Under the pieces are notes generated by a model, which did not search any database, was not told where the DNA came from, and saw only the letters and a program-made list of their open reading frames with translations. From a virus, in IMG/VR virus record IMGVR_UViG_3300035701_000053, positions 1 through 49,336 of that record: a DNA stretch of 49,336 nucleotides, one strand, 5' to 3'. Position numbers and translations under genes: made by a program. Position 1 is the first letter of the stretch. Every line of letters begins with the position of its first letter. This document shows, in pieces, positions 34,059-45,528 of the stretch.

Positions 34059-34970
34059 TTACGCCCTGGGAGCGAACGCGCTGACCTGGGCCGGATTCTC
34101 GGCCAAGTATTTGTTGTACAGTTCTTTGCCGCGCGGGGAGTCGATGACCCTCCGGATCGCGCGCTCTCGCGTGAGGTTGACGTCCGAGGACTTCTCGACG
34201 AGGGCGTCCGCCATCTTGACGATCTCGACCATCGCGGAAGAGGGAGTCGACTCGCCCTTCGCGGCGAGGCCCGCCTCGTGGACCGCGGAGGAAGTCGCAA
34301 TCAGATCGGACGCGGACTTCATCGCCTCGAACTGCTGCTTCGCGACCTCGGGGCTGACGTCGCTTAGGGACTTAAGGATCTTCCCGAGTTCCTCGGAGGA
34401 TTTCCCGGGGAAGTGGGAGAGGGAGGTCTTCGCCTTCTGCGTCCACTCCGCCTCCTCGCGCAAGTCGCGCTCGGTCTTGAGTTGCTTCTCGATGATCTCG
34501 TTCTGTTTTCGGAGCGCGTCGAGCGCGTCGTTCTGTGTGGTCATGGCGTCCTGTACCTCCTTGGGAAGCTCCTTCGACTTCGCGCAGGGCTTCGGTTCCT
34601 CTTTTTCCTTCTGCTTCTCTTGCGGGGACGGGTATCCGTTCCCGGGCTTCGGGTATCCGGCAGCCGACGCCAACTTGTCGAGGGCGTCCGTCGGCAACTC
34701 CTCTTTGAACGCGTTCAGGATGCGGAGCGCAGCCTTGAGAGCGTTCACGGCCTTGTCGGAGAGTCCCGCCTTGTCGATACTCTCGACGAGCTTCGCCTCC
34801 TCGTCGACCTCCGTCTCCAGGACGGCTTTCATGATTTCTTCGTTCATCTGTTGACTCCTTTGTTCTGATTTCCATAGAGGGAACCGCTTCTTGCGGTTCG
34901 CTCCTTTGTCCACGAGCGAGACCTCCATCGTCTGTAGTTCTGTTATTTCCTTTGGATTTTGCTCAGCCAC
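34059..34970 (-). CDS. XkdF-like/scaffold-type head protein, 303 aa
   Basis: GTG start (34970) with AAGGAG eight bases upstream. N-terminal V-S-L-V-D-K-G-A-N-R-K-K-R-F resembles the end of XkdF-type head proteases; the rest is a long charged helical region (E-A-K-L-V-E-S-I-D-K-A-G-L) with a proline-rich linker, as in scaffolding proteins. It follows the protease gene with an eight-base overlap, so scaffold and protease are made together. The main role is likely internal capsid scaffold. Confidence 0.65.
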   Translation of the reverse strand: MAEQNPKEITELQTMEVSLVDKGANRKKRFPLWKSEQRSQQMNEEIMKAVLETEVDEEAKLVESIDKAGLSDKAVNALKAALRILNAFKEELPTDALDKLASAAGYPKPGNGYPSPQEKQKEKEEPKPCAKSKELPKEVQDAMTTQNDALDALRKQNEIIEKQLKTERDLREEAEWTQKAKTSLSHFPGKSSEELGKILKSLSDVSPEVAKQQFEAMKSASDLIATSSAVHEAGLAAKGESTPSSAMVEIVKMADALVEKSSDVNLTRERAIRRVIDSPRGKELYNKYLAENPAQVSAFAPRA

Positions 34971-37900
34971 TCGGGTTCTCCTTCAATTCGATAATCCGGA
35001 CCTTCGGCATAGAGCGGGGAGACAGCGGTCGCTTAATCCCTTGACCTCCAGGCGAGAAGGCGTTGAAAACTCCGTCCTGATAATCCTCCCACTCCTTCGG
35101 TCCGAGTTCGATCCCCATGACCCACGAGCCCGAGTGAAGGACGTCGGAGCCGAAGGGCCTCCGGAAGATCGCGTGGTCCTGCTCGCGCATGGCTCGAAGA
35201 TAGTCGCCCCGGGTCGGATACGGCTCGACCCAAGACTCGACGACGGCAGCGTTCGCCTTCTGCTTATGCTGCAGACCGACGACGCGGGACGTCTTGAGAT
35301 ATTCGTGAGCGGTCTTTTCGACGACCGAGGGCGGAGTCCAATCGTTGTGCGCGTCGGTCTCGGGCGCTCCTCGGTTCCCGTAGGGGTCGAGCACGACGCC
35401 ATAAACGATGCGCTTGATAGGGTCCGCCTTGACAATCTCGACCGATGCATTCTTCTTCTCGACCTCGCGTCCCGTCTTCACATCGAAGAACTTGGGACGC
35501 TCTCCGGGCTTCGCCCAAACTAGGAACCGTTGTCCCTTGCGTCGAAGCTCACCCAATACATCGGTGAGGTCTCGCGTCTCCGCCATCGGTTTTTGGTCGT
35601 CCGGTTTATCTATCAACCATCGACGACGCCCCGCGACGGGAGCGAACATCAGCAAGTATCTCCCCGAGAGGTCCTTGCCGTCAAGAAAAATCTCGACCAT
35701 ATGAAGGCGAGCAACCCCGAGCTTATACGTCCCGCGGTCTCGCTCGAAGAACTTCGAGAACATCTTCGTCGTCGCCCCGACTCCTCCCGGTGGCGAAACA
35801 TAGGGCTTGCCGACTCCGACGTCGAGCCAGTCCTTCGGTTGGAGGAGCTTCGGTCCCGCTTCTATGTTGTCTCCCGGTTTCCAGTCGATGAGCTTGTCGA
35901 GGTTCGGGCCTCTGTTGTCCTTCGTTAGACCGAGGAAAATTGTGAAGCCCCATAGTCCGTCTTTCCCTTCGAGGCGGAGGTCGCCGTGCACGGAGTGATC
36001 GGTCTTCATTAGGTCCGCGTCGTCCGCGCTCGTCTCCTCCTCGGGGAGCCCTCGCCAGTGGTGTTGATAAACGAAGCGACCCTCGCCGCTCGCGGGGAGC
36101 ATATCCTGCCAAGTCGAGTTCCAATTTGCGACCGCCCGCTCCGTCCTCGTCTCCTCCTCCTCGGGTCCCTTCTGCTTCGCGACCTTCTCGATCTCCGCCA
36201 GCATCTCGCGCACTCGCTTTAATTTTCGCCCGACCTCTCCGGAGTCCCCGAAGCGACGCACCGCGGACGGATGCGGGAGGACGACGTCGGCTCGGTCGTC
36301 GAGCGCGGCCTGCGCGGTCTTCCCGAGGGCGACGACGACGAGTGGCTGCGCTCTGTCGAGTTCCATCCTGACCCATTCTCGCCACTCTTTTGTCTCCTCG
36401 ACCGTCGGCTCGCGGACCGTCCCGTCGGAGTTCGCGAGGAACCTCGGGACCGCGTTCGTGAGGAAGACCTCCGAGCGGGAGACACCGAGAGGTTTTAGAT
36501 ATAGCTGATTCAACGTCTCGCCCACGGGACCGATGAACGGCTCGCGACGAGCGACCTCCATCTTCCCGGGAGAGGCTCCGACGAAGGCGACCCTCGCGCG
36601 CTCTGGACCGGACGACGGGACCTCGGGGCGGAGGGACTTCTTGATGTTCGCGGGGAGATACTCGACGACGTTCCCCTTCTCGTCGACCCGCTTCGTCCGG
36701 AGGACGAGGTCCTTCGAGGCTCTGTCGACGACGTCGTCGACCGAGTCGGGATCTCCCTCATAGGTGCCTAGAACTCGCGGGACCCACGCGGTCAGCTTTA
36801 TCCCGTTGGGTCCTAGTTCGTAGTTAACCTGCTCTGCTTCGACGAGGAGCCTGTCCCCTGGCCCGTAGGAGCGCGAGGAAGAGAAGCTCGTCCCGACCGG
36901 GACGAACTTCCCGGGAGTCAGGGCGATAGGCTTCAGCTTCCCGGGGCGAACTCCGTACTCGTAAGTGAAGGCACCGCCCTTCGTTCGCGTACGCGCAGCG
37001 ACGATGCCCCGGAACACGGTGGCGTTATGGAACTTGACCCACAAGTCGGGGGTCGCGACGTCGAGGAGGTAGGGGCTCTCTAGCTGTTTCCCGACGATCC
37101 CCTCCGAGCCCGGAAGTCGACGGACCCGCTCGGTCTGCTCCCGGACCTCCGCGGGAGTTTTCACGACTACAACGGGAGCGGAATTGATTCTCCTCTGGAG
37201 GTCGGGGACCTCCATCGTCCCCTTCCCCGGGATCTTCGCCAGATATTCGAGGCGCTCGCGGAGCGGGCGCTTGTGTAGGTCCTCGCCCCAATACAGTACG
37301 TCGAAGACGTTCGCGACGAGGCTCGAGTCGTCGGGCTCGTCCTTCTTCCCGAGGTATCCGGAGACCGCCTCCCGAGGAAGATGCTCCCCGTCCTCCCACG
37401 CCTCGATCTCAGCATCGAGGACGACCTTCTCCTCGGGGAGCTTCCGGACTTCCTCGACTAGACCCGGGAGGCGGGACGTGTTGTCGTCTCCGTCCTCGGA
37501 TAGGACGAGGACCTTGTCTCCGACTTTGTGGATCTGATGCCTCGCCCCGTCGTATTTTTTTTGAATCGCCGCAGGGAGCCACTTGTCCGCGCGATCCTCG
37601 TATAGCTTCACGAGCGCGTCGACGCTCTGCGGCTCCTCCGGTTGCGCGGGCCTCGTCGGTTTTGGTTGGAAGAAGAACTCGCCCGGAGCGATCTTGTCTT
37701 CCTTCCTCGCGCGCTCCGCTTGCGATCGAAGTTCTGACGAAGCTGCGCTCGCCTCCCTCGACGCGTCCGCCTTCACGACTCGTTCTCGGTCCGCATACTC
37801 GGGAGGTTGCGTCTCGATCTTTACGACCTGCGGCTCCCGCCTTCTCGCGACGAGGTCGAACACGGGGACATAGTCGGTGAACGATCCTGCCGGCGCTCCG

Positions 37901-38559
37901 ATGAGTTGGATCTGCGGTCCGTTCTTATCGGGAGCGAGGAACCTCCGGATCGCGACCCAAAGCGCCGAACCGTCGAGACCATACGACCCGAGCTTCGCGT
38001 CGTAAGGAGCCCGGACGACGACGTCGACGTCATCGGGCTTCTCAGCGACCGCGGCGGAGCCCGCGACCGTCACGAAGTCGCGGACGAGAAGGACCTCGTC
38101 CGGAGCCCGCTCCATTATTTTTTCGAGGTGTCGAGGAAGGACTCCTCGCGTCCCGTTGACCGCCTTCTTCCTCTGCTTCGCGAGGTCTTCGAGTTGCCCG
38201 ACCGCCTCGGTCAATTCGGACTCCGAGACCTCTCGCCCTCTGCTCTCCATCTCCCGCTTCGTCCATAGAGCCGCGTTGACGACGTTCTCGACCGATTGCC
38301 TCCGCCGCTTCGCGTTCGCGAACCACTGCGCGAGGCGGAGCCACACCATCCCGAGTTCTTCGTCCGAGAGCTTCCGGAGCGTCGTCGGGGTTATCTCCTG
38401 GAGGGCGACCTTCTCAAGGAGCGTGGGCTCGTCGACCCGATGCGCGGCTCGACCTCCCGCGACGGGTCGCGCGGAGTTCCGCAGCATAGCGTAAAGCCAA
38501 CCTGGGAGGGTCTTCTTCGCCTGACTCCATAGTTCTTCGAGGTATTCCTTCGACGCCAT
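34963..38559 (-). CDS. Giant fusion: NTase-like + ATP-dependent DNA ligase + UDG-like + LigD-PE-like + prohead protease, 1198 aa
   Basis: Start 38559 has GGAGAGGAGG upstream. Domains by motif: nucleotidyltransferase-like about 155-240 (G-S-A-A at 167, D-D-V-D at 176-179, F-D-L-V at 234); ATP-dependent DNA ligase about 315-600 (K-Y-D-G-A-R, Lys335; L-D-A-E-I-E-A near 381; E-G-I-V-G-K 486-491; L-W-V-K-F, Lys509); uracil-DNA-glycosylase fold about 655-790 (G-A-S-P-G, P-F-I-G-P-V-G, T-N-A-V-P, L-P-H-P-S) with no cysteines, so no Fe-S cluster; LigD phosphoesterase-like about 820-995 (F-V-Y-Q-H, H-G-D-L-R-L-E); prohead protease about 1045-1175 (G-L-Q-H, His1098; V-E-S-W, Ser1109; G-S-W-V-M-G-I-E-L). 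Possibly a self-cleaving polyprotein loading repair enzymes into the head, or free enzymes released by proteolysis; activity of each domain is inferred from motifs. Confidence 0.85.
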   Translation of the reverse strand: MASKEYLEELWSQAKKTLPGWLYAMLRNSARPVAGGRAAHRVDEPTLLEKVALQEITPTTLRKLSDEELGMVWLRLAQWFANAKRRRQSVENVVNAALWTKREMESRGREVSESELTEAVGQLEDLAKQRKKAVNGTRGVLPRHLEKIMERAPDEVLLVRDFVTVAGSAAVAEKPDDVDVVVRAPYDAKLGSYGLDGSALWVAIRRFLAPDKNGPQIQLIGAPAGSFTDYVPVFDLVARRREPQVVKIETQPPEYADRERVVKADASREASAASSELRSQAERARKEDKIAPGEFFFQPKPTRPAQPEEPQSVDALVKLYEDRADKWLPAAIQKKYDGARHQIHKVGDKVLVLSEDGDDNTSRLPGLVEEVRKLPEEKVVLDAEIEAWEDGEHLPREAVSGYLGKKDEPDDSSLVANVFDVLYWGEDLHKRPLRERLEYLAKIPGKGTMEVPDLQRRINSAPVVVVKTPAEVREQTERVRRLPGSEGIVGKQLESPYLLDVATPDLWVKFHNATVFRGIVAARTRTKGGAFTYEYGVRPGKLKPIALTPGKFVPVGTSFSSSRSYGPGDRLLVEAEQVNYELGPNGIKLTAWVPRVLGTYEGDPDSVDDVVDRASKDLVLRTKRVDEKGNVVEYLPANIKKSLRPEVPSSGPERARVAFVGASPGKMEVARREPFIGPVGETLNQLYLKPLGVSRSEVFLTNAVPRFLANSDGTVREPTVEETKEWREWVRMELDRAQPLVVVALGKTAQAALDDRADVVLPHPSAVRRFGDSGEVGRKLKRVREMLAEIEKVAKQKGPEEEETRTERAVANWNSTWQDMLPASGEGRFVYQHHWRGLPEEETSADDADLMKTDHSVHGDLRLEGKDGLWGFTIFLGLTKDNRGPNLDKLIDWKPGDNIEAGPKLLQPKDWLDVGVGKPYVSPPGGVGATTKMFSKFFERDRGTYKLGVARLHMVEIFLDGKDLSGRYLLMFAPVAGRRRWLIDKPDDQKPMAETRDLTDVLGELRRKGQRFLVWAKPGERPKFFDVKTGREVEKKNASVEIVKADPIKRIVYGVVLDPYGNRGAPETDAHNDWTPPSVVEKTAHEYLKTSRVVGLQHKQKANAAVVESWVEPYPTRGDYLRAMREQDHAIFRRPFGSDVLHSGSWVMGIELGPKEWEDYQDGVFNAFSPGGQGIKRPLSPRSMPKVRIIELKENPSG

Positions 38560-38561
38560 CG

Positions 38562-39623
38562 TCAACCCTCCTCTCCTCCCGTCGGAGCTTCCGCTTCGAC
38601 GATCGTCTCGGTGCATCCGCAGTTCGGATGTGCGGGCGGACCCGGGACGGGCTCGTCGAGTTCCGGGCTCTCGTATGCTCCGTTGAGCGGGGCGGTCGTC
38701 CCGTCGAGCGACAAGCAGATCGAGCAGGGTCGGTTCGGGCTCGCGCTCGGAGGCGGAGACATCCAGACCCGTTGAACCGCGGGGAGGACTCCCGCGTCGC
38801 TCGCCGCCTGCCAAGCGGACTTCCTCCCCTCCGACTCCGCATACATCGTCTCAGTACGAGCGATACGCTCGGCTCGAACTCCGCGAAGCTCCTCCCTGTA
38901 TGCGTCGGTTTCCTCGCGGACGTCCTCCGGTTGGAACCCCTTCTCCTCCAGGAGCGCGCGTCGATTCTCCACGGCCTTATACTCGCGAGAGGTCAATCCG
39001 ATGTTCTGCTTTATAGAATCGAAGGCGACGCTCGGATGGAGACCTTTCCCGAACCCGTCCTGGATTATCGACGTGACGACCTCGCGCTGCTGCTTCGAGA
39101 GCCCCTCGCGAACGAGTTGGAGCGCGCGTTCGTCGATCCACTTGAGCGACCTCGGATTCACGGGGACGCTCTCGACCATAATCCGCCCCGAAGGGTGGAT
39201 GTTGACCGCCTTCGTGACGTAGTTAAAGACGACCTTCTTCCCGAACTTCTCCTGGATAGCGTTCGCCGCGACGTCGCTCGTCTCCCTCGCGATCGTGTAG
39301 TATGCGGTCTTAATCCTCGCGAGGAAGTCGGTCCACACGTCGTGCTTCCCGTCCGACTCCGCGAAGAACGGGATCGACGACAGAACCGTGTTGACCGAGT
39401 TACTCCTCCAAGCGGTCTCGAAGTCCCGCCTCTTCTTCTCGTCGAGCAGACCGGAGAGCGCGGCGAGATACGCCTGCGAGAACTTCTTCTCGTTCCTCGC
39501 CGCGACCGCGTACGCGTTCCGCCCCTCCTGCGTCCTCGGAGCGACGTCCTCCCAAGCGGGCCTCGGTCGCCGCTTCGCGCTCCTTTTCCAGATGGCGACT
39601 GACTTGAAATAGGGGACGAGCAT
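38562..39623 (-). CDS. MuF-like minor head protein, 353 aa
   Basis: The C-terminal half contains the MuF signature: R-I-A-R-T-E-T-M-Y-A near 252, a C-S-I-C-L-S-L-D-G-T pair and the closing P-P-A-H-P-N-C-G-C (about 329-337), a metal-binding site. The N-terminal half is helical. Located between portal and protease genes, as in Mu and SPP1-type heads, where it is injected or assists head assembly. Confidence 0.85.
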   Translation of the reverse strand: MLVPYFKSVAIWKRSAKRRPRPAWEDVAPRTQEGRNAYAVAARNEKKFSQAYLAALSGLLDEKKRRDFETAWRSNSVNTVLSSIPFFAESDGKHDVWTDFLARIKTAYYTIARETSDVAANAIQEKFGKKVVFNYVTKAVNIHPSGRIMVESVPVNPRSLKWIDERALQLVREGLSKQQREVVTSIIQDGFGKGLHPSVAFDSIKQNIGLTSREYKAVENRRALLEEKGFQPEDVREETDAYREELRGVRAERIARTETMYAESEGRKSAWQAASDAGVLPAVQRVWMSPPPSASPNRPCSICLSLDGTTAPLNGAYESPELDEPVPGPPAHPNCGCTETIVEAEAPTGGEEG

Positions 39624-39630
39624 CGGAGCC

Positions 39631-41058
39631 TCAAGCTCCGCGCTCTGTTCCGACGCGAGCCGCGCGGACGAGGACCTCCTCGACGGATCGGAACTTCGAC
39701 TTCGCGCGTGGCGGGTCTTTCGCGAACGACTTCCGGAGCCCTCCCATCTTCGGCTCGGACGGGACGGAGGGCGCTCCCTCGACGGTCTCGGGTTGCGGGA
39801 GCTTCCCGATCTCCAGGAGCTTCCGCTTGATCTTCTCGTCGTCCGGGAGCTGTCCCGAGGCGGCGAGGCTCTGCACGTACGCTCCGATCTCCGCGAGCGG
39901 CGGAGTCTCGATGTCCCCGTGAACGACTTCCGGCCAATACTCGGACTCGAACCCGTTGACCTCCATGAGGCGGGCGACCGCGAAGCGATTGAACGTCGCG
40001 GCGATCGAGTCGAGGAACGCCCCGAGCGACATCGAGAATGTGTTCGTCTGCGACGAGGCGAGAGCGTACGACCCGACGTCGTTCATCCCCAACTGTATGA
40101 ATTGCGCCAGCACCGATTGCAGGATGCCGATCTTGTAGTAGTCCTTGACGAGGGTCGTGTTAATTTGCCGCGAGCCTCCGGACGAGAGGAGCTTGAGCTT
40201 GAACCCCGTCGGCTTTCCTTGGTCGTCCTGCTCACAGGGAACGAGGGCGAACTCTCGCTCGTCCCGCTTTAGCTGCGAGAGCATCGTCTCGATCTGCGTC
40301 CGGAGAGCCCGTTGGTCGGAGGTCGCGGAGGTCGACAGGTATTTCATCGGCACTTCCATGACGAGCAGACCCGTCATGTCCCGCTCGATCCCGACCGCTT
40401 CGATCTCGCAAATACGCTTTAAGAAGAACCAGTCGAGGACCGCGTTCCGGAAGATCGACCGACCCTCGGGGTTGTTCTTGTAGACCGATGTCCGGAAGAG
40501 GACCGACTTCTCGATCGGAATGAACGCCCGCTTCCCGGTCGAGGGGTCGCTCTGCCACATACCGCGGAGACCGTTGTCCTCGGAGTCGAACTCCCAACGG
40601 TCGAGCGTGTCCTGCGCGCGGAGGGCGAACTTGCGCCAACCGACTCTCCCGTCGTCATACTTCGACCGTATGCTCGGAGGGTCGGACGACGTCCCGCCCT
40701 TCCGGATTTTATAGACCGTCTCGAAGTAGCTCCAACCGTAAGGGAACATCGAGATGACCTCGGAGAGGAAGTCCTCGAAGGTGTGGCTCATGTCGTAAAG
40801 ACATTCTTCGAGGAACTGAGCCGCGGCGACCGCGGGCTCCTCGGTCGAGACCGCCTCGACGCGCCACTCGACTTGCTTCGTGAGCGTCTCGATTAACCAG
40901 AGGATCGCCCCAATCGCGGACGAGTTGTCCGCCATCTCGCGGTAGACCTTCGGACCGAAGGCTCCGCGGAGCTTCGGATGCCATTCCTCGGAGATGATCC
41001 CGTCCTGCTGCTTGAGTCCCGTGTACCCTAAAACGCCAAGATCGAGTTCGTCGGTCAT
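39631..41058 (-). CDS. Portal protein (Mu gp29/DUF935-like), 475 aa
   Basis: Start 41058 overlaps the terminase stop as ATGA. Contains I-L-W-L-I-E-T-L-T-K-Q-V-E-W, F-P-Y-G-W-S-Y-F-E, A-L-R-A-Q-D and F-L-K-R-I-C-E-I-E plus the stem-like helix L-A-Q-F-I-Q-L-G-M-N-D-V-G. The portal forms the packaging ring at the head vertex. It sits in the canonical terminase-portal-MuF order. Confidence 0.85.
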   Translation of the reverse strand: MTDELDLGVLGYTGLKQQDGIISEEWHPKLRGAFGPKVYREMADNSSAIGAILWLIETLTKQVEWRVEAVSTEEPAVAAAQFLEECLYDMSHTFEDFLSEVISMFPYGWSYFETVYKIRKGGTSSDPPSIRSKYDDGRVGWRKFALRAQDTLDRWEFDSEDNGLRGMWQSDPSTGKRAFIPIEKSVLFRTSVYKNNPEGRSIFRNAVLDWFFLKRICEIEAVGIERDMTGLLVMEVPMKYLSTSATSDQRALRTQIETMLSQLKRDEREFALVPCEQDDQGKPTGFKLKLLSSGGSRQINTTLVKDYYKIGILQSVLAQFIQLGMNDVGSYALASSQTNTFSMSLGAFLDSIAATFNRFAVARLMEVNGFESEYWPEVVHGDIETPPLAEIGAYVQSLAASGQLPDDEKIKRKLLEIGKLPQPETVEGAPSVPSEPKMGGLRKSFAKDPPRAKSKFRSVEEVLVRAARVGTERGA

Positions 41059-42461
41059 CCCTGGATTTCCTTCCACGGGCTCGCCCTGACGCCCACGTTC
41101 GAGAAGTCGATATCCGTCAGTTCGTCGACCCGAGCGCGCGACGACAAGAACCGGAGCGCCATCGTCATCGCGTCGACTTGGTCGTCGTTCGCGCTGTTCG
41201 GGAAAGTTACCACCTCACCCAAGAAGTCGTCAACCCAACTCGCGTCCGGAGGGAGGAAGACGTTCCCCGACTCGACGAGCCCCGAGACCGCGTGAAGTCG
41301 GTTCTCCTTCGACGTCTCGGCTCGGATCGGACGCAGGCCCGGGACGTGACTCCGGAGAGTGTCGAGGATCGCGGCTCCGTTCGCCGCCTCCTCGACGAGG
41401 ACGTCGTTCGCGTCGGTCCACTTCTGGCGAAGGCGGACGACCATCCGGCAGCAGTCGAGGAACGACATCCGATCCCGGACTTGGTCGAGGAGATAGAAGT
41501 TGGGGAAGCTCTCCCGCCAGACCTGCGCGACGACGAAGCTCGACCCCGTCGCCTTGAACGTCGGGTCGAGCGAGATGACCGTCCTCCCGTCGACCGGGAG
41601 CGACTCGGGACGCCAGAACTGAAACCAGTCGCGGTTCAGGACTCCGCCTTCGAGCGGGGCGGGCCTCTGCTGATACAGGCAGGCGAACTTAAACGACCCG
41701 AGCGTCCGTCGGATGACCCCGAGGTCCTCGCTTATGTACCTCTCCGGACACAGCGGGGCGTCCTTCGCGCGACCGAGGGAGTCGCCCTCCTCCGCGAGTG
41801 CGGGAAAGTTCAACCGCGTCCAACGGTCCTCCGAGTTCTGCAGCAGATGACCCGTGAGGTCGTCCTCGTGCCATCTGGTTTGAATGACGACGATCGACGC
41901 CCCGGGCTCGCGGCGAGGATAGATCGTCCCCTCGAACCAGTTCCGGACCTTCTCGCGCGCTGCCGGCGACATCGCCTCCTCCCAGGACTTGTGCGGGTCG
42001 TCGACGACGATGAGGTCGCCTCCAATACCCGTGACAGACCCTCCAACCCCGACCGAGCGCATCCCGCCTCCTGATGCGGTCTGCCAGTCCTTCGCAGCGG
42101 ACTTGTCCGAACGGATGCGCGTACAGGTCTTCTTCTGAGACACGAACTCGTCGCGGACCGCGAGGCCCCACCTCGTCGCGTAGGTGTCCGAGTACGAGGC
42201 GAGGATTACGTTCCGCGCGGGGAACCATTCGAGGAACCAAGCGGGGAGCCAGTGCGAGATCGCCTCGGACTTCCCGTGCCGCGGCGGAGCGTTGACGATT
42301 ATGCGCGCGTCGCCCGCGAGGATCGCCTCCTGGACGATCGCGAGCATGTTTTCAAGCCAGTCATAAGCGACCCACTTCCCATCGCTGACGCGCTCCGCGA
42401 AGTCCGGGACGTTAAGTCGCCAAGCTCGTTCCGTGACCTCGTCGATGCTAATCGCCCGCAT
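41055..42461 (-). CDS. Terminase large subunit, 468 aa
   Basis: ATPase: Walker A N-A-P-P-R-H-G-K-S-E (57-66), Walker B L-I-V-V-D-D (150-155), coupling motif around V-I-Q-T-R-W-H-E-D-D. Nuclease: V-I-S-L-D-P-T-F-K-A-T (RNase H-like strand with Asp) followed by L-V-E-E-A-A-N-G and a C-terminal D-D-Q-V-D-A. Translocates and cuts DNA at the portal. It overlaps the small-subunit gene by 14 bases. Confidence 0.95.
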   Translation of the reverse strand: MRAISIDEVTERAWRLNVPDFAERVSDGKWVAYDWLENMLAIVQEAILAGDARIIVNAPPRHGKSEAISHWLPAWFLEWFPARNVILASYSDTYATRWGLAVRDEFVSQKKTCTRIRSDKSAAKDWQTASGGGMRSVGVGGSVTGIGGDLIVVDDPHKSWEEAMSPAAREKVRNWFEGTIYPRREPGASIVVIQTRWHEDDLTGHLLQNSEDRWTRLNFPALAEEGDSLGRAKDAPLCPERYISEDLGVIRRTLGSFKFACLYQQRPAPLEGGVLNRDWFQFWRPESLPVDGRTVISLDPTFKATGSSFVVAQVWRESFPNFYLLDQVRDRMSFLDCCRMVVRLRQKWTDANDVLVEEAANGAAILDTLRSHVPGLRPIRAETSKENRLHAVSGLVESGNVFLPPDASWVDDFLGEVVTFPNSANDDQVDAMTMALRFLSSRARVDELTDIDFSNVGVRASPWKEIQG

Positions 42462-43086
42462 TGAGCTTCTTCACGAGCGTGCGAGCTGCGGCGAGCGCGT
42501 CCTTATCCGAGAGCAGGGATCGCATCGACTCCCGCTCCTCCTCCGAGGTCAACCTCTGTCGCTCCTCGACGATCGACCCGGGCTCCCCGTGCGCCTCGCG
42601 CTCGACTCGAATCCCGAGGTCGATGAGGCGTTGGACGTCTCCCGGAGAGATCGTGAACTTCTCCTTCCCCTCCGCCTTCGCGAGGAGACGTCGAAGCCCG
42701 ATCCCCCCGAGCCTCTGCATCCCCTTCCCCAATTTCGCATGCCTCTCCCGCATGTCCGCCGCGTCCTTGAGGAGCTTCTTCCTCCGCTCCTTATCGACCG
42801 CGAGGTCCCACGCCTCGACCCGAGCCCGCCAACCGCAGAAGCCCGACCAATCCAGGACCGTATTGTAGTGGCCCTCAGTGTTCGGGATTTGCCGTTGAAC
42901 GGCTATGAGGTCGCTCGCCTTCTTGACGGACCGCTCGTGCGGGTCGAGGTCGCGGAAGACGAGGAACGCGCTCCAGGCGAGTTCCGTCTCCCAGGGCTGT
43001 CGCTCGTAAAGCTCGCGATCCGGAGCATAGGGTCCTTTTAACGTGACTGCGGGGTCTTTCGGTTTTGGTCTTCGTCCTCTCAACAT
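42448..43086 (-). CDS. Terminase small subunit-like, 212 aa
   Basis: Immediately before the large subunit. N-terminal Y-E-R-Q-P-W-E-T-E-L-A-W-S-A-F, then D-W-S-G-F-C-G-W-R-A-R-V-E-A-W-D and a long helical C-terminus; the W-E-T-E-x-A-W-x-A-F and S-x-F-x-W-x-x-R combination is seen in phage small terminases of the TerS-like group. Start 43086 has the promoter-like sequence at 43094-43122 directly upstream, leaving almost no leader. Confidence 0.75.
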   Translation of the reverse strand: MLRGRRPKPKDPAVTLKGPYAPDRELYERQPWETELAWSAFLVFRDLDPHERSVKKASDLIAVQRQIPNTEGHYNTVLDWSGFCGWRARVEAWDLAVDKERRKKLLKDAADMRERHAKLGKGMQRLGGIGLRRLLAKAEGKEKFTISPGDVQRLIDLGIRVEREAHGEPGSIVEERQRLTSEEERESMRSLLSDKDALAAARTLVKKLNAGD

Positions 43087-43093
43087 GCCTCGA

Positions 43094-43122
43094 AGGTAAC
43101 ACGGGGCGAACGCGACCGTCAA
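43094..43122 (-). promoter_or_regulatory. Possible promoter for terminase/head operon
   Basis: On the - strand TTGACG (43117-43122), 17 bases, then TTACCT (43094-43099). The -35 is good, the -10 poor. Transcription would begin within a base or two of the terminase ATG, giving a leaderless message. Weak call. Confidence 0.3.
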
Positions 43123-43187
43123 ACGTGGCGGGAGACCCCGTGTTGTGAATGCTGGCGGAAGCTGGCGAACTTCGAGTCGTCGGGCTT

Positions 43188-43913
43188 CTACTTGACCGCG
43201 AGCCAACCCGCGAAGTTCGCCCATCGCCAGAAGCACTCGACCTTCGAGAAGCCCGCGTTGCGGAGGAAGGAGACGTTAGCCTCCTCGGTCATCGGGACGA
43301 GGACCCCTTCGAGCGAGAGGCGCTTCCGTGCGATCTGCTCGTCCGAGTATCCGTTCGCCTTCTTCGCGTCGACATAGACCTCGGAGAACGTCTCGTCGAT
43401 CTTCGCGTCCGACGAGATAACCTTCTCGACGAGGAGGAACGCTCCGCTGTGCGCGGTATGCTCCGCGACCTTCGCGAGTATCCGAGGGCGATGCTCGATC
43501 GGCGTGAACTGTATCGTCAGGACCCCGAGGGTCAGACAGGCGACGGAGGCGGGATACTCGTGGCGGAGGTCGACGCGACGGACGTCCGCGACCCCGCACT
43601 TGATGTACCCGTCGAACCGAACCCTCGCCGCGGAGAGCATCGGCTCGGAGACGTCGCAAGCGATGTATCGGTTGTACGCCCCGAACTTCCGGATAAACGG
43701 GTCGAGCGCCTCGCCTCGGGCGCAACCGAGGTCGACGACGTCGAGCTTCGGGACGACGAACCGCTTCCCGATCTCGAAGCACAACTCCCGCATGATGTGG
43801 TATTGCGGGATCGACCGTTCGAGCATGTCGTCGAATACGTCCGCGACCGCCCCGTCGAACTTCCACTTCCCCTCGGGCTCGACCTCGTCCCGCGGTCTTT
43901 CGCTCTCGTTCAT
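43188..43913 (-). CDS. cmoA-like: CmoA-like carboxy-SAM synthase homologue, 241 aa
   Basis: Closely follows bacterial CmoA, which converts SAM and prephenate to carboxy-SAM for tRNA wobble uridine. Matches include K-F-D near 18, V-F-D-D-M-L-E-R-S-I-P-Q-Y (26-38), V-D-L-G-C-A-R-G (60-67), A-C-D-V-S-E-P-M-L (85-93), L-T-I-Q-F (132-136), V-E-K-V, D-A-K-K-A-N-G-Y-S (182-190), and I-A-R-K-R (Arg198, in the place of the E. coli Arg199 that I recall binding the carboxylate). Start 43913 overlaps the methyltransferase stop. No CmoB is present, so the donor probably serves the adjacent DNA methyltransferase. High similarity across the full length supports the call; the enzyme's product is inferred. 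Confidence 0.85.
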   Translation of the reverse strand: MNESERPRDEVEPEGKWKFDGAVADVFDDMLERSIPQYHIMRELCFEIGKRFVVPKLDVVDLGCARGEALDPFIRKFGAYNRYIACDVSEPMLSAARVRFDGYIKCGVADVRRVDLRHEYPASVACLTLGVLTIQFTPIEHRPRILAKVAEHTAHSGAFLLVEKVISSDAKIDETFSEVYVDAKKANGYSDEQIARKRLSLEGVLVPMTEEANVSFLRNAGFSKVECFWRWANFAGWLAVK

Positions 43914-44959
43914 TTCGTCCTCCTCTTCTTCCCGTCCCGGAGTGGGACGAGTATCTCGTCGCGGATCGTCTCCGCGAGCCGTTTCATCATGAGCGGCGGG
44001 ACCGCCCGCCCGAGGCGTTCCCACTGCCGTCCATAGTCTCCCGTCAGGACGAAGTCCGCGGGGAACGAGCAGATGCGCTTGAGTTCGTCGATCGAGAGCT
44101 TCCGCTTCTCGACCGGATGCGTCACGGTCGCGGTCCCTCGGTTATGTCCTCCCTCGCAGCAGATGGTCGGGCAAGGTTTAGCAAGGGCGGGCTTGACTAG
44201 GTTAAAAAACTTCTGCGAACTTCGTCCGGGCTGTAGCTTGTCCCACTCCCGCCCGATCGCGTATCTGGCGAACGAGAGCCACTCCCGATCCTCCTCGCTC
44301 GGCTCGACGTCCCGGAGGGCGTCCCGGAGCGAGTATCGGAACGGCAGAGGGCGAGGGAACGCGGGGCGGAGGACGAGGTCGTCCCGGACCCCGACGAAGA
44401 TAATCCTCCTCCGGACCTGCGGGACCCCGCACCATTGCGCGTCGAGGAGCCTCGCCTCGACGTCGTATCCGACGTGCCGCATCTCGCGGAGGATCTGCTT
44501 GAACACGCCCTTCGAGACCCCGGAGACGAGCCCGGAGACGTTCTCCGCGACGAAGACCTTCGGGCGGAGCCCGTCGACGAGGCGGACGAACTCGAAGAAG
44601 AGGTCGTCGACCCTCTGCTTCGTGTCGGAGTATGCGCGGACTTTGCCCCAATCCTGGACGAGGTTGCCGGCAGCGGAGAACGACGCGCAGGGAGGCGACC
44701 CTTCGACGACGTCGACCTCCCCTCGGGCGAGCCCCGTCTTCGCGAGGATCTCCTCGGGCTTGACGAGGCGGACGTCGCGGACGTCGAGGAAGACGTCGGG
44801 ATGGTTCGCACGATACGTTGCCTGCGCTGCCTTTACGAACTCCGACGCCCACAGGACGGAGAAGCCCGCCATCTCGAACCCGAGGCACGACCCGCCGCAG
44901 CCCGAGAAGGTCGAGACGACCTTGAACCCGTTCTTCGGCAGAGCCCGGACCTCGGACAT
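43910..44959 (-). CDS. DNA cytosine-C5 methyltransferase with Arg in motif X, 349 aa
   Basis: Complete C5-MTase motif set: I F-S-G-C-G-G-S-C-L-G (18-27), IV G-S-P-P-C (87-91, catalytic Cys91), VI A-E-N-V (138-141), VIII Q-V-R-R-R-I-I-F-V-G (181-190), IX R-I-C-S-F-P-A-D-F (295-303), X L-G-R-A-V-P-P (316-322). In normal C5-MTases motif X is G-N-[AS]-V-P-P; here Asn is Arg318. In an engineered M.MpeI the same Asn changed to a basic residue allows carboxy-SAM use. The start is uncertain (44959, or a further-upstream frame into ParB). The next gene is CmoA-like, overlapping by four bases. Confidence 0.9.
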   Translation of the reverse strand: MSEVRALPKNGFKVVSTFSGCGGSCLGFEMAGFSVLWASEFVKAAQATYRANHPDVFLDVRDVRLVKPEEILAKTGLARGEVDVVEGSPPCASFSAAGNLVQDWGKVRAYSDTKQRVDDLFFEFVRLVDGLRPKVFVAENVSGLVSGVSKGVFKQILREMRHVGYDVEARLLDAQWCGVPQVRRRIIFVGVRDDLVLRPAFPRPLPFRYSLRDALRDVEPSEEDREWLSFARYAIGREWDKLQPGRSSQKFFNLVKPALAKPCPTICCEGGHNRGTATVTHPVEKRKLSIDELKRICSFPADFVLTGDYGRQWERLGRAVPPLMMKRLAETIRDEILVPLRDGKKRRTK

Positions 44960-44997
44960 CGTCGGCACTCGGAATGGTGGTCGATCAAGCTCTGCTA

Positions 44998-45528
44998 TCA
45001 CGACCACTCGAACCCGCACTTCGGGCATTTGTGCGAGGTCTCGACGTCCTCGTCGAATTTTTCGAACTCCTCCGGGGCCTCCTTGCCCTCGAACGACGGG
45101 AGGTCGTCCGGGGAGAAGCCCGTGAGGTCGAGGTCGTACCCCTCGCCCGAGAGGTCGGAGAGCACGTCCGCCAGCATTTCGTCATCCAGTTCCGAAAGTT
45201 CTCCGATCTGGTTATCCGCGACGAGGTCCGCGAGTTCTGCTTCCTCGGACGGGTAGTCCTGGAAGTCGACGGGGACGAGGTCGAGCCCGAGCTTGCGTGC
45301 GGCGAGGAGTCGCCCGTGTCCGCGGACGACGAACTTCGACCGCTTCGAGACCGTGATCGGCGCTCGCCAACCGTGCGCGCGGATTATCTTCGCGAGGAGT
45401 TCGAGTTGCTTCTCCGGGTGTTTGTTCGGGTTCCGCGGATGCGGGACGAGGGAGTCGAGCGGGACCAACTTCCCGAACGCGCACTCGACCTTCGGGCGTT
45501 CGGTCTGCTTCGTCTGTTTTTTCGGCAT
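44998..45528 (-). CDS. ParB-domain nuclease-like protein, 176 aa
   Basis: Start 45528 (M-P-K-K-Q-T-K-Q) is preferred over 45564. Residues 20-90 contain L-V-P-H-P-R-N-P-N-K-H, L-L-A-K-I-I-R-A-H-G-W and the catalytic-type G-H-G-R (70-73) of the ParB/Srx fold, where some members cut DNA or use CTP. The C-terminus is acidic and ends in a C-P-K-C-G-F zinc knuckle. Phage ParB-like proteins often lie beside DNA methyltransferases, possibly guiding them. It opens the leftward modification and head operon. Confidence 0.8.
   Translation of the reverse strand: MPKKQTKQTERPKVECAFGKLVPLDSLVPHPRNPNKHPEKQLELLAKIIRAHGWRAPITVSKRSKFVVRGHGRLLAARKLGLDLVPVDFQDYPSEEAELADLVADNQIGELSELDDEMLADVLSDLSGEGYDLDLTGFSPDDLPSFEGKEAPEEFEKFDEDVETSHKCPKCGFEWS

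Follow-up and report, generated by a model that had tools for sequence, protein, structure and literature searches.

A phage operon very probably encoding CmoA-CmoX carboxymethylation of DNA cytosine

Why does a phage carry a CmoA-like gene that overlaps a gene for a DNA cytosine C5 methyltransferase (C5-MTase)? The 49,336-base sequence analysed comprises one virus record from IMG/VR and is henceforth referred to as the window. A first-pass annotation, made from the sequence alone, had proposed that the phage produces carboxy-SAM (Cx-SAM) with its CmoA-like protein, and that a C5-MTase with Arg in motif X uses this cofactor to place 5-carboxymethylcytosine (5cxmC) in DNA. This scheme is the same as that described for the CmoA-CmoX-CmoY system of Synechococcus phage S-B43 (Yang et al., Nat Commun 2025;17:281, published December 2025; PMC12783734); a natural system of the kind proposed had thus been reported before. 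In S-B43, CmoA (SpCmoA) makes Cx-SAM with a kcat of 2.33 per s, the C5-MTase CmoX (SpCmoX) uses Cx-SAM to form 5cxmC in GC motifs, and CmoX-modified DNA is resistant to HhaI; 5,615 CmoX candidates were listed in the same study, with CmoA, ligase and ParBc neighbours reported (PMC12783734). The core of the proposal is supported for the window because these homologous enzymes have been characterized biochemically and structurally (PMC12783734) and because the window contains the defining residues and gene context. Very probably, the locus is a tailed-phage cassette for carboxymethylation of DNA by CmoA and CmoX.

Operon, CmoA and CmoX

The window encodes a family-A DNA polymerase, an SNF2-like helicase, a PD-(D/E)XK nuclease and a primase-like protein, together with terminases, portal, major head protein, tail and baseplate proteins, and was therefore assigned to a tailed phage. 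End repeats were not detected in the 49,336-base record, so it may be incomplete. The ParB-like, C5-MTase and CmoA genes form one tight operon (45528-43188), and the genes for the terminases and portal come directly downstream (Table 1). Both junctions within the operon are 4-nt overlaps. As the first-pass annotation had described, the cmoA start overlaps the cmoX stop (ATGA, 43913-43910) and the ParB-like gene lies ahead of both; a Shine-Dalgarno-like GAGGAGG precedes the cmoA ATG.

Table 1 Features of the window discussed in the text.
Feature	Position	Strand	Basis and remarks
First operon gene: ParB_N-domain protein (176 aa, start ATG 45528)	44998..45528	-	PHROG/Pfam matches
CmoX, predicted DNA cytosine C5-carboxymethyltransferase, 363 aa from GTG 45001	43910..45001	-	8YF3 best match
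CmoA, predicted carboxy-SAM synthase, 241 aa	43188..43913	-	4gek/1im8, phrog_4752
Terminase small subunit	42448..43236	-	phrog_6299 E=4e-12; exact start not fixed
Terminase large subunit	41055..42461	-	phrog_38 E=5.5e-99
1283-aa frame, ligase-glycosylase-protease fusion	34963..38814	-	Domains given in text

The CmoA assignment is based on full-length matches to the E. coli enzyme (4gek, E=4e-31, covering residues 14-240 of 240) and H. influenzae YecO (1im8, E=1.7e-31), and on a match to phrog_4752 (E=3e-68). Arg198 aligns with Arg199 of E. coli CmoA, which forms a salt bridge with the carboxylate of Cx-SAM (PMC3663124), and the correspondence claimed in the first-pass annotation was thus confirmed by alignment. 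SpCmoA (L003:4443-5138) has Glu in the same alignment column. Since SpCmoA is active, Arg at this position supports the assignment without being a strict marker, and phage CmoA may not strictly depend on the Arg199 equivalent.

The C5-MTase matches Pfam DNA_methylase with E=1.3e-54 and contains the SPPC, ENV and QxRxR motifs. Its motif X reads WERLGRAVPP, with Arg in place of the usual Asn, exactly as had been noted for LGRAVPP. By sequence, the best PDB match is 8YF3, the crystal structure of SpCmoX with Cx-SAM, at E=1.2e-61 (next best 3e-27). An AlphaFold2 model built from 27 relatives (mean pLDDT 89.7, with a low-confidence loop at residues 92-100 next to the catalytic Cys) also has 8YF3 as its top fold match (E=9e-32, rmsd 2.5 Å; next 2e-24). 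The Arg of the window motif GRAVPP aligns with SpCmoX Arg350 (GRMVPP), which replaces the motif X Asn and contacts the carboxylate in 8YF3 (PMC12783734).

The number given earlier to this residue, Arg318, is correct when counting from ATG 44959 (349 aa) but is displaced by the likelier start. The alignment of relatives contains a conserved N-terminal K-P-x-Y-x-V-P-x-M, and its window counterpart, RPPFRVPTM, sits at and upstream of ATG 44959. Because of this upstream motif and the GTGA overlap of GTG 45001 with the ParB stop, GTG 45001 is the likelier cmoX start, making the motif X Arg residue 332.

In the proposed pathway, CmoA would convert host SAM and prephenate to carboxy-SAM. CmoX would flip the target cytosine, the SPPC Cys would attack C6, and the carboxymethyl group would be moved from carboxy-SAM to C5, with the motif X Arg pairing with the carboxylate and so selecting carboxy-SAM over SAM. 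Phage DNA would then carry 5cxmC, and restriction enzymes with the modified base in their site should be blocked. Both enzyme steps are established for homologues; for the window copies, we infer activity, target motif and biological role. The target-recognition region of the window CmoX cannot be aligned with that of SpCmoX, and the GC motif is therefore not transferable. Dinucleotide bias in the window (GpC 0.87, CpG 1.42) was considered as a pointer to the target motif and dropped, as it gave no clear signal against relatives.

Outside the operon, the 1283-aa frame combines ATP-dependent DNA ligase, family-4/UDGX-like uracil-DNA glycosylase (UDG) and XkdF-type prohead protease domains. The fusion is kept in three related contigs (L193, L195, L230) and partly in three others (L194, L198, L204). 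In L230, the interval between the glycosylase and protease domains resembles the LigD 3'-phosphoesterase domain (E=3.7e-5, below cut-off). A literature search found nothing on a ligase-UDG-prohead protease fusion.

Ligase and final DNA base

In S-B43, the ligase CmoY adds glycine, and virion DNA contains the glycyl form (5gcxmdC) with no detectable free 5cxmdC (PMC12783734). No CmoY was found upon tblastn of the window, a possibly incomplete record, with the S-B43, PaBG and TurkishDelight ligases, and the Asn-synthase-like family PF00733 had no window match at E≤1. The 1283-aa frame was ruled out as a CmoY substitute, its ligase portion being a polynucleotide ligase domain (DNA_ligase_A_M, E=5.7e-22) fused to UDG and prohead protease.

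Three proteins served as queries in IMG/VR scans for relatives: CmoX of the window, an MTase of a Flavobacterium phage, and the Aphanizomenon phage CL131 C5-MTase, which is of the Asn type. Phage records were added. Neighbouring genes were identified by profile searches up to 10 kb on each side of the MTase. A ligase was found near 29 of 88 loci with Arg in motif X; among the 27 of these that have 4 kb or more of flanking sequence on each side, the number is 14. Moraxella phage Mcat8, whose genome is complete at 40.7 kb, has a system without a ligase and no PF00733 match, and ligase-free systems also occur in contigs of 102 kb and 65 kb. Clustering of the neighbours of ligase-free loci revealed no other regular gene; only small genes specific to phage groups and genes at the packaging positions stood out. 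A branch without a recognisable ligase therefore exists.

Bare 5cxmC is a possible end product since no CmoY was found in the window or in relatives such as Mcat8; alternatively, the base may be elaborated by a gene that is unrecognised or off the contig. That the ligase-free cassettes of the window and Mcat8 leave bare 5cxmC as the final virion DNA base is put forward tentatively, at somewhat less than an even chance. If true, phage DNA with a free, negatively charged base would represent an end state distinct from the glycyl amide of S-B43. In this branch the finished modification may be the carboxymethyl group itself; Mcat8 shows the gene order of the window in a genome that is complete.

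A full pathway resembling that of S-B43, with a CmoY-type ligase elsewhere in the genome or too diverged for detection and a 5cxmC amide (glycyl or other) as the final base, is possible but rather doubtful. The ligase counts among Arg-type loci, the exclusive recovery of the glycyl form from S-B43 DNA and the lack of end repeats in the window are in its favour. The negative PF00733 and tblastn results, the 4-nt overlaps that leave no room between the three genes before the terminase genes follow, and the ligase-free Mcat8, 102-kb and 65-kb sequences argue against it. Such a ligase would extend the carboxymethylation reading rather than exclude it.

Linkage of the motif X Arg with CmoA

The possibility that the window encodes an ordinary 5-methylcytosine MTase, next to which CmoA lies by coincidence, perhaps as a helper in tRNA modification, is consistent with the conserved C5-MTase fold and catalytic motifs but is highly improbable given the neighbouring genes of its relatives. 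CmoA was found near 85 of 88 Arg-type genes but near none of 17 Asn-type relatives in similar ParB contexts and none of 80 genes with Met in motif X; the Asn and Met totals include a few rows assigned by eye after the script had left them unassigned, and all counts represent related loci from a few scans, not independent events. The Fisher P value for Arg versus Asn (7e-17) overstates independence because the loci are related. In the three Arg loci without CmoA (L008, L067 and L187), the contig either breaks off next to the gene or begins inside it. Equal occurrence of the Arg away from CmoA, which the first-pass annotation held to speak against its proposal, was not found, and the carboxymethylation idea survives. 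The Arg is also invariant in the 27 aligned relatives, and this invariance and the almost perfect linkage to CmoA indicate that it is far from a chance substitution. Biochemistry of the homologue points the same way: SpCmoX works with Cx-SAM but not with SAM, and the R350N mutant works with neither (PMC12783734). Additionally, CmoB was not noticed among the families that general profile searches identified in the window.

More telling than the counts is the tree of these proteins. Two closely related contigs, L188 and L189, are nested within the Arg clade, with L188 beside L007 at a support of 95/95, yet both carry Asn in motif X. L189 aside, the best matches to L188 by sequence are without exception proteins of the Arg type. 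CmoA was not found in either contig (72 and 70 kb). This looks like a natural loss of CmoA accompanied by a return to Asn, although the contigs may be incomplete. The near-perfect linkage of Arg and CmoA, together with this one apparent natural loss of both, constitutes independent support for the published reading of CmoX.

A role for CmoA chiefly in counter-defence by SAM depletion, or in tRNA wobble modification, with DNA modification secondary, is most improbable: SAM depletion was raised as a possibility by Yang et al. (PMC12783734) and Alcaligenes phage Afa-NA1 has a CmoA with no C5-MTase match beside it, but CmoA of the window lineage overlaps CmoX and tracks the motif X Arg, and supply of carboxy-SAM to CmoX has been shown for S-B43 (PMC12783734).

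The ParB-like protein, which the first-pass annotation regarded as an accessory of carboxymethylation, did not prove to be a dedicated partner. It matches Pfam ParB_N at E=2e-4 (below the curated cut-off), PHROG ParB-like families with E down to 4.8e-37 and a PHROG family of ParB-linked DNA MTases with E=6e-41. A ParB gene accompanies 77 of the 88 Arg-type loci but also adjoins Asn-type C5-MTases. Four terminase relatives of the window (L190, L191, L194 and L195; 49-54% identical) still have ParB ahead of the terminase genes, but with neither CmoX nor CmoA, and N6/N4 MTases occupy the ParB-terminase site in two of the four. A role dedicated to carboxymethylation was therefore ruled out, and ParB is regarded as accompanying DNA-modification and packaging loci of phages in general. 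The S-B43 paper gives the role of ParB as unknown (PMC12783734). The window places a CmoX in a lineage of phages where, among the closest relatives by terminase, this site is taken by different modification genes or has none. In one of these relatives, a radical-SAM-like protein (L195:2312-3703, weak Pfam match) is encoded between the ParB and small terminase genes, at the position of CmoX-CmoA in the window.

Several further loci were observed during the survey. The Met-type proteins (L089:2941-4008 and L091-L170) comprise Flavobacterium phage FPSV-S2 and 80 IMG/VR relatives, and form a C5-MTase-like family with GMSVPP in motif X and a CmoX-like SPPC...REKDWGK stretch. Neighbour searches revealed no CmoA and no consistently linked cofactor gene for this family. 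In Yersinia phage fHe-Yen9-02, CmoX (L088:5007-7085) is apparently split by an intein exactly at the catalytic SPPC Cys, and CmoA and a ligase-like gene are about 13 kb from CmoX. Genome assemblies of two actinobacteria, Nonomuraea fuscirosea and N. cavernae (L270 and L271), contain ParB-CmoX-ligase-CmoA clusters, and the next gene begins with a P-loop resembling that of terminases (SGKT); these are probably prophages or remnants.

Comparison with known systems

The window shares CmoA and the Cx-SAM cofactor with the CmoA-CmoB modification of the tRNA wobble position in E. coli, but its predicted acceptor is DNA cytosine and CmoB was not among its noticed families. The fold, catalytic Cys, ENV and QxRxR of the window CmoX are also those of M.HhaI and M.HaeIII, which differ in having the motif X Asn and SAM as cofactor.

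Among phages, the same gene set as in the window is found in PaBG, TurkishDelight and S-B43. Moraxella phage Mcat8 has the order ParB-CmoX-CmoA-TerS-TerL and, like the window, is ligase-free; its CmoX and CmoA are 41% and 20% identical to those of the window, its motif X is GRMVAP and its proteins are annotated as hypothetical. Pseudomonas phage PaBG also has the order ParB-CmoX-CmoA (CmoX 48%, CmoA 44% identical), but in this 258-kb phage the cluster is ParB-CmoX-CmoA-hypothetical-CmoY, with the Asn-synthase-like ligase two genes on.

Compared with S-B43, the window CmoX is 39% and CmoA 27% identical by alignment, the target-recognition region differs, an Asn-synthase-like CmoY is not detectable in the window, and the window genes have 4-nt overlaps and lie directly before the terminase genes. 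Both phages nevertheless carry CmoA together with a C5-MTase homologue that has SPPC and the motif X Arg, and ParB neighbours are reported for the family. The window system is a further member of the published CmoA-CmoX system, and its remaining interest lies in the ligase-free branch and the linkage evidence.
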